Assembly: GCA_030424715.1 (NCBI GenBank)
Contig: JAUHWH010000001.1
Span: 558,001 to 622,000 of the forward strand
Source of the DNA: Bdellovibrionia bacterium
Lineage (GTDB): Bacteria; Bdellovibrionota; Bdellovibrionia; Bdellovibrionales; JAGQZY01
Direction of reading: 5' to 3'
Length of the DNA stretch: 64,000 nt
Shown: one piece after another, positions 56,778 to 60,465 of the stretch
Position numbering within the stretch: the stretch's first letter is position 1
Layout of the letters: every line of letters begins with the position of its first letter
Translations under genes and position numbers: made by a program
The notes under the pieces: model-generated
The model's input: the letters and a program-made list of their open reading frames with translations, nothing else
Database searches by the model: none
Told to the model about the DNA's origin: nothing

Positions 56778-56858
56778 AATACACCCTTATACCCCTGAAA
56801 TTATTGATCTATTTTGAGACGTTGGGCTAGACAAAACTCAAGAATATGTCTTGGATTT

Positions 56859-56887
56859 TTCGCAAACGGACAGGACTCGGGTATAAT
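56859..56887 (+). promoter_or_regulatory. Promoter placed for a leaderless transcript of the 56894 gene
   Basis: A perfect -10 TATAAT (56882-56887) ends six bases before the ATG at 56894, so transcription should start at or within a base of the A of ATG. The -35 (TTCGCA, 56859-56864) is weak but at 17-base spacing. Confidence 0.55.
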
Positions 56888-56893
56888 AGACCT

Positions 56894-57493
56894 ATGTCGA
56901 CGTTTCTGATTTTGGATTCTAATGATTACTTCCACACCGTGGTTGAGGACGCTTTTAAAGAGCGGCGAATTGAAACCTACCCTCACATAAAGACCTATGT
57001 GGTTGATATCTTGAAACACTATCTCTTTGTGGAGAACCTCTATGACCATCTCGACACTTCCGGCAAGAAGACTCGTAAAACCATCGCTGAGCTTTATCTG
57101 ACAGCGGGACAATCAGGAGGTAAAGACCGTGTCGAGAAGCTGAAGAAATTGGGCGATAGCTCACTTTATATATCTGGTTTCTTTTCAGACTCTTTCCAGC
57201 GAAAAATCATTGATGTGGATTACTATGTTGATATGGGAAAGCTGGCCTTCGAGTCCCTTTCCCACGACGTGTCTGAAGACACCTTTGCTAAGCTTTTTCG
57301 GGATATATCGGAGCATTTTTTGAACTTGGTTGACGTGCTTTCTCTGATCAGCCAAAAAGCGAAGATTATGGACCAAGAAAACGTCCTTCGTATGATGGAT
57401 CTCTACTCAAAGACAGGCTCGACCCTGATGGGAGAGACTCTCGCTGAAAAAGGCTACTTTAACCCCTCCATGAAAAAGACCACCAAACAGTAA
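56894..57493 (+). CDS. Hypothetical cytoplasmic protein, 199 residues
   Basis: I do not recognise this protein. From ATG 56894 it starts MSTFLILDSNDYFHTVVEDA, without a signal peptide. It is mainly helical and charged, with no cysteine. The middle reads GQSGGKDRVEKLKKLGDSSLYISGFFSDS, given here as DRVEKLKKLG then SLYISGFFSDSF; the rest is rich in Leu, Asp and Lys. It may belong to a small family restricted to related bacteria. The frame extends back to 56846, but the -10 at 56882 argues against that start. No ribosome site is possible on the predicted leaderless transcript. It precedes tatB. Confidence 0.75.
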   Translation: MSTFLILDSNDYFHTVVEDAFKERRIETYPHIKTYVVDILKHYLFVENLYDHLDTSGKKTRKTIAELYLTAGQSGGKDRVEKLKKLGDSSLYISGFFSDSFQRKIIDVDYYVDMGKLAFESLSHDVSEDTFAKLFRDISEHFLNLVDVLSLISQKAKIMDQENVLRMMDLYSKTGSTLMGETLAEKGYFNPSMKKTTKQ

Positions 57494-60093: not shown

Positions 60094-60137
60094 CCAGTGA
60101 ATCTGATACGCCAACGGCATGCCAAGTCGAAATATTT

Positions 60138-60167
60138 TTGTCTTCAGATCGAAATGTAGGGTAGATT
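60138..60167 (+). promoter_or_regulatory. Possible promoter of the histone gene
   Basis: TTGTCT (60138-60143) and TAGATT (60162-60167) with 18 bases between, about 43 bases before the histone ATG. It is the best fit in the 155-base gap. Confidence 0.4.
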
Positions 60168-60210
60168 AGCGAGTAACTTAAAGGAACCGCCTGACCATTG
60201 GGAGGTAATC

Positions 60211-60405
60211 ATGGCAAATGTATTGGTAGTGACAAGCAAAGTAAAAAAGTTCATCAAAGAAAGCTCTGGCTGTAACACTTCTGCGGAAACAGTTGATGTT
60301 TTAAGCAAAGCTGTTGAGCAACTTTGTAAAAAAGGTGTTGAGGCCGCTCAAGCGGATGGCCGTAAAACAGTAATGGCCCGTGACATTGTAATTGATCACA
60401 TTTAA
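60211..60405 (+). CDS. Bacterial histone (single histone-fold protein, Bd0055-like)
   Basis: A 64-residue protein covering one complete histone fold: helix 1 (about 9-17), loop 1, the long helix 2 (about 24-52) and short helix 3 (about 56-63, TVMARDIVIDHI). The sequence is nearly that of Bdellovibrio bacteriovorus Bd0055, an abundant nucleoid protein that binds DNA by an unconventional end-on mode. Recognisable features are MANVLVVTSKVKKFIKE, the SAETVDVLSKAVEQL helix and the RKTVMARDIV end. GGGAGG precedes the ATG. The gene stands alone with its own likely promoter and a strong terminator, as expected for a highly expressed chromatin protein. No N- or C-terminal tail is present. Confidence 0.93.
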   Translation: MANVLVVTSKVKKFIKESSGCNTSAETVDVLSKAVEQLCKKGVEAAQADGRKTVMARDIVIDHI

Positions 60406-60436: not shown

Positions 60437-60465
60437 AAAACCCCAAAACTTTTTGGGGTTTTTTT
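60437..60465. terminator. Intrinsic terminator between histone gene and ligA
   Basis: A near-perfect hairpin with CCCCAAAA / TTTTGGGG arms and a minimal loop, followed on the plus strand by seven T residues. It ends the histone transcript and overlaps the last codon of ligA; for ligA (minus strand) only four T residues follow. Confidence 0.88.

Follow-up and report, generated by a model that had tools for sequence, protein, structure and literature searches.

A short open reading frame in a 64,000-nucleotide stretch of DNA from a Bdellovibrionia bacterium (the window) raises the question of whether this organism carries a histone of the kind known from Bdellovibrio bacteriovorus and, if so, how the protein would act on its chromosome. 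The ORF, at 60211–60405 on the + strand, is complete from its ATG to its TAA and encodes 64 aa (MANVLVVTSKVKKFIKESSGCNTSAETVDVLSKAVEQLCKKGVEAAQADGRKTVMARDIVIDHI). A preliminary description of this DNA had taken the product to be a tail-less histone fold and a clear homologue of Bd0055 (HBb) of B. bacteriovorus. Both points are upheld by the evidence below, while its views on the promoter, on the manner of DNA binding and on the gene standing alone need to be qualified.

Identity of the gene and its expression signals

The protein matches Pfam PF00808 (CBFD_NFYB_HMF) at 24.7 bits against a cut-off of 21.4, and the histone fold makes up the whole of it, with no tail. When compared by phmmer with PDB chains, residues 1–64 align without gaps to Bd0055/HBb (8fvx/8cmp) at E = 1.7e-28, which excludes a chance match; the next family, HTkC, follows at 4e-7. 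A profile built from 16 orthologues separates these further, with HBb at about 1e-39 and the next chain or family at 4e-11. In the alignment with Bd0055/HBb, 52 of the 64 residues are identical (81%). The AlphaFold model (pLDDT 83) has an alpha2 helix spanning residues 25–48 and an alpha3 of about 3 residues, and in a Foldseek search with this model ranks 1–5 are all HBb chains. The short alpha2 and truncated alpha3 of the HBb type are therefore present, on the basis of both the model and the gap-free alignment. In a tree based on an alignment of only 68 columns, the HBb, FtF and ZZ histones are each set apart by a single branch in 99% of 200 bootstrap trees, with the window protein placed in the HBb group together with Bd0055. 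Membership of the bacterial dimer class is defined by sequence clustering with Bd0055/HBb (Schwab 2024), and the window protein clusters in this way.

The identity, the identical DNA-contact residues, the position in the tree and the shared gene order together indicate orthology with Bd0055. The reading preferred here, at a probability of about 90%, is that the window gene is an orthologue of Bd0055/HBb, a 'bacterial dimer' alpha3 histone acting as a dimeric DNA-bending nucleoid protein. The gene itself is ordinary: it belongs to a family that was characterised recently, and is nearly universal in its order.

The likeness to HBb/Bd0055 extends to length, the lack of a tail, predicted fold, contacts, RD clamp and the ligA/gatCA neighbours. 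The difference lies in 12 substitutions, chiefly in loop 1 (residues 18–21) and on the alpha2 surface, and includes Q47 (60349–60351) in place of a K that is present in 54 of 55 aligned sequences. Residue 47 is near the L2 loop and is not among the listed DNA contacts. The FtF histones (HLp of Leptospira perolatii and HTkC of Thermococcus kodakarensis) share the alpha3-type fold, the RD clamp and the RKT loop, however their profile match is much weaker, the window histone has no basic tail, and the positions of the HLp tetramer residues R49 and N53 are A45 and D49. The ZZ histones (Bd3044 type) have a related alpha3 histone domain, yet form a separate tree group and carry an N-terminal ZZ-type zinc finger that is absent from this 64 aa protein, which is histone fold only. 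With the archaeal nucleosomal histones (HMfA/HMfB, HTkA) the histone fold, the L1–L2 DNA edge and the RD clamp are held in common, but identity in the fold search is 34% or lower. The features by which nucleosomal histones are defined (PMC10627809) are all missing: there is no sprocket arginine, alpha2 is shorter and has A48 in place of the tetramerising histidine, and alpha3 is of one turn rather than three.

The gene has its own signals for translation and termination, as had been described. A Shine-Dalgarno sequence, GGGAGG, is present at 60200–60205 (+), with the ATG 5 nt further on. On the 3' side of the stop codon, a strong intrinsic terminator hairpin at 60437–60462 (+) has 11 pairs, a fold energy of about -13 kcal/mol and a T run after it. 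The congener also has a hairpin and T run at the same position, differing in sequence from that of the window.

A likely promoter had also been claimed. A scan with the sigma-70 consensus upstream of the histone gene found no + strand promoter. There is, however, a conserved upstream block at 60126–60171 (+), including TTTTGTCTTCAGnTCnAAATG..TAGATTAGC (about 60136–60171), that is common to the window and the same-genus G001/L034 while the flanks diverge; L034 and G001 are identical here and were counted as one comparison. Within the block is a candidate weak -35/-10 pair, TTGTCT (60138–60143) and TAGATT (60162–60167) with an 18 nt spacer, and the congener retains a 45-base block with the same TTGTCT-18-TAGATT arrangement. 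The retention of the block, and of a terminator with changed sequence, is the pattern expected from constraint on function. The conservation of the block suggests that it may serve as a weak sigma-70 promoter. Several Bdellovibrio orthologues have a TTGTCA...CTATGCAAACCTTTTA block upstream in place of that of the window.

Predicted DNA contacts and mode of action

All of the DNA-contact residues named for HBb (PMC11317129) are unchanged in the window histone. The RKTxxxxD loop/RD clamp and the alpha1 lysines are complete (R51, K52, T53, D58, K10, K12 and K16), and the extended RD clamp (D49, R51, D58) is the same as in HBb. Across 55 aligned sequences the HBb contact residues are invariant or near-invariant, with the exception of A25 (36/55), and residues 7–10, 12–13, 15–16, 22–23 and 49–59 are invariant. 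The gene is under purifying selection, with a median pN/pS of 0.18 (range 0.09–0.30) against 54 full-length orthologues.

The HBb protein is known from apo and DNA-bound crystal structures (PDB 8FVX, 8FW7, 8CMP, 9EZZ and 9F0E). It binds, bends and compacts DNA, and its deletion failed (PMC11317129, PMC10627809). In attack-phase cells Bd0055 ranks 12th among 2,125 proteins, and no protein is more abundant than it in the nucleoid fraction (PMC10627809). Dimerisation, bending, high abundance and probable essentiality would be expected of the window histone by extension from this characterised orthologue. Two copies would pair through crossed alpha2 helices, and this homodimer would contact the DNA backbone at the minor groove irrespective of sequence. 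The predicted contacts are T8, S9, K10, K12 and K16 in alpha1, and N22–A25, K52, T53 and R57 along the loop1–loop2 edge. Isolated dimers would then bend the DNA and help to compact the nucleoid. Wrapped tetramers or hypernucleosomes would probably not be built, since the tetramerisation residues of both FtF and nucleosomal histones are absent, the positions concerned being A45, A48, D49 and I61. Wild-type Bd0055 does not wrap DNA, although it brings the ends of DNA together once mutated to A48H/S45F/I61L (PMC10627809). Having A48, A45 and I61, the window protein should likewise not wrap DNA.

The preliminary description held that Bd0055 binds DNA in a way unlike nucleosomes, and on this the published accounts are at odds. 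End-on sheathing of straight DNA was proposed by Hocher 2023 (PMC10627809), with the Bd0055 crystal structure 8fw7, FRET, AUC and MNase data in its favour, whereas Hu 2024 (PMC11317129) described bending via histone-like contacts. The residues involved in the sheath are identical in the window histone, so that an HBb orthologue coating straight DNA at 1 dimer per about 2.5 bp, with no bending, has to be weighed here too. Tethered particle motion, ligase circularisation, topology assays and two further crystal forms favour bending (PMC11317129), and a sheath over a 3.1 Mb chromosome would presumably demand a very large pool of protein. Coating of this kind is therefore considered unlikely for the window histone.

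A gene-specific regulatory role, like that of NF-Y/CBF, would be a different function altogether. The CBF/NF-Y transcription factors do fall under PF00808, but the window histone has no added domains and the contact residues touch the backbone only. In addition, HBb binding by DAP-seq is chromosome-wide and motif-free (PMC11317129), and HBb ranks first in abundance in the nucleoid fraction (PMC10627809). Such a role is extremely improbable, and the bending dimer is retained as the reading of this gene.

Locus and distribution in the Bdellovibrionales

The neighbours of the histone gene are as previously described. Upstream on the same strand are tatA, tatC and a calcineurin-like phosphoesterase gene, and downstream is a convergent ligA, then gatC and gatA. 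Among 79 compared loci, mostly from uncultured Bdellovibrionales genomes, ligA is in the fetched flank at 76 and is downstream on the opposite strand in 75 of these; 61 loci have gatC and 53 have the phosphoesterase gene. The locus of B. bacteriovorus (L066) is among those with the order of histone and convergent ligA. Because it adjoins convergent ligA and gatCA across the Bdellovibrionales, B. bacteriovorus included, the window gene is a vertically inherited orthologue. Horizontal acquisition of the window gene from archaea was considered for the Bdellovibrionales and rejected, position and sequence both being vertically conserved. A 215-aa ORF without a Pfam match is present upstream of tatA (56846–57493, +), and is beside tatA/tatC in the loci of 13 relatives.

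A search for HBb-type genes gave a match at E <= 1e-4 in 131 of the 141 genomes of the order. Setting aside six weak matches (E > 1e-14), probably of the ZZ type or of unclear kind, brings this to 125. With the weak matches removed, about 98 of the 103 good-quality genomes have the gene. The Bd0055-type histone is thus a core, vertically inherited gene of the Bdellovibrionales, and its place next to ligA is maintained across the order. Such retention speaks for a general role in the chromatin of the group and against a peculiarity of one predator. It is reasonable to suppose that histone-based chromatin probably extends to this organism, as had been proposed, although this is not news in itself, homologues of Bd0055 having already been reported in 67% of Bdellovibrionota genomes (Hocher 2023, PMC10627809).

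Further histones in the same genome

The gene was previously presented as a stand-alone histone, but the genome (3.13 Mb in 18 contigs) has two further histones and three HU/IHF-family genes. The window histone is as a result one of several candidate nucleoid proteins. Outside the window is a ZZ-type zinc-finger histone of 178 aa, of the Bd3044 type, which has cysteine pairs and bears its histone domain at the C-terminus (G000:C15:901252-901782 (-); L002:1468-2004 (-)). Also outside the window is an FtF-type histone of 79 aa, in which a lysine-rich N-terminal tail, MAKKKKKKVATKKRATAKKK, is joined to the histone fold (G000:C13:268157-268393 (-); L003:1495-1734 (-)). The profile of this FtF-type family has Leptospira HLp as its best match (E 1.7e-20), with HBb at 2.4e-12. 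The HLp tetramer residues R49, N53 and R55 (roles from PMC12701072) are invariant in the 19 aligned members of the family.

These additional proteins raise the prospect that the window gene is a minor paralogue, with packaging carried out by the tailed FtF-type histone or by HU. Codon use gives no mark of high expression that would speak against this. The histone CAI of 0.734, calculated against 23 ORFs from the ribosomal-protein and EF-G cluster, is equalled or exceeded by 31% of 64-codon segments drawn at random from window genes and is uninformative on expression. The window gene, however, has an intact ORF, is under strong purifying selection and is near-universal in the order, whereas the FtF-type gene is patchy (21 of 141 genomes) and is missing from the same-genus G001. 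A minor role is therefore very unlikely.

All 21 genomes with the FtF-type gene also have an HBb-type gene. A ZZ histone match is found in 58 of the 141 genomes of the order, and all three types are together in 9. The closest relative, the same-genus G001 (L144), has kept the HBb-type gene but has no ZZ and no tailed FtF-type histone; the latter two thus appear to have been gained or lost recently. A single Bdellovibrionales genome with all three types was not found described in a search of main texts, chiefly of papers outside the subscription journals, and no claim of priority is made.

The three-histone combination is a more interesting lead than the window gene itself and merits a separate look. 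It is possible, as a tentative proposal only, that this organism has a multi-histone chromatin made up of an HBb bending dimer, a tailed FtF tetramer wrapping about 60 bp, a ZZ histone and three HU-family proteins, with bending, wrapping and targeting divided among the three histones, in a combination that recurs in the Bdellovibrionales. Genomes with all three types, one of them lysine-tailed, would make it possible to compare, within one bacterium, what bending and wrapping histones each do.

When the neighbourhood of the FtF-type gene was compared in seven genomes, the genes next to it in the window organism had no match in the other six. According to Schwab 2024 (PMC11390915), FtF histones of the phylum are found mainly in the class Bacteriovoracia; a phylum search, in which they were common outside the order, agrees with this. 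Lysine-rich starts of variable length are present in most of the FtF-type members, with almost none in the shortest (G125 and G121).
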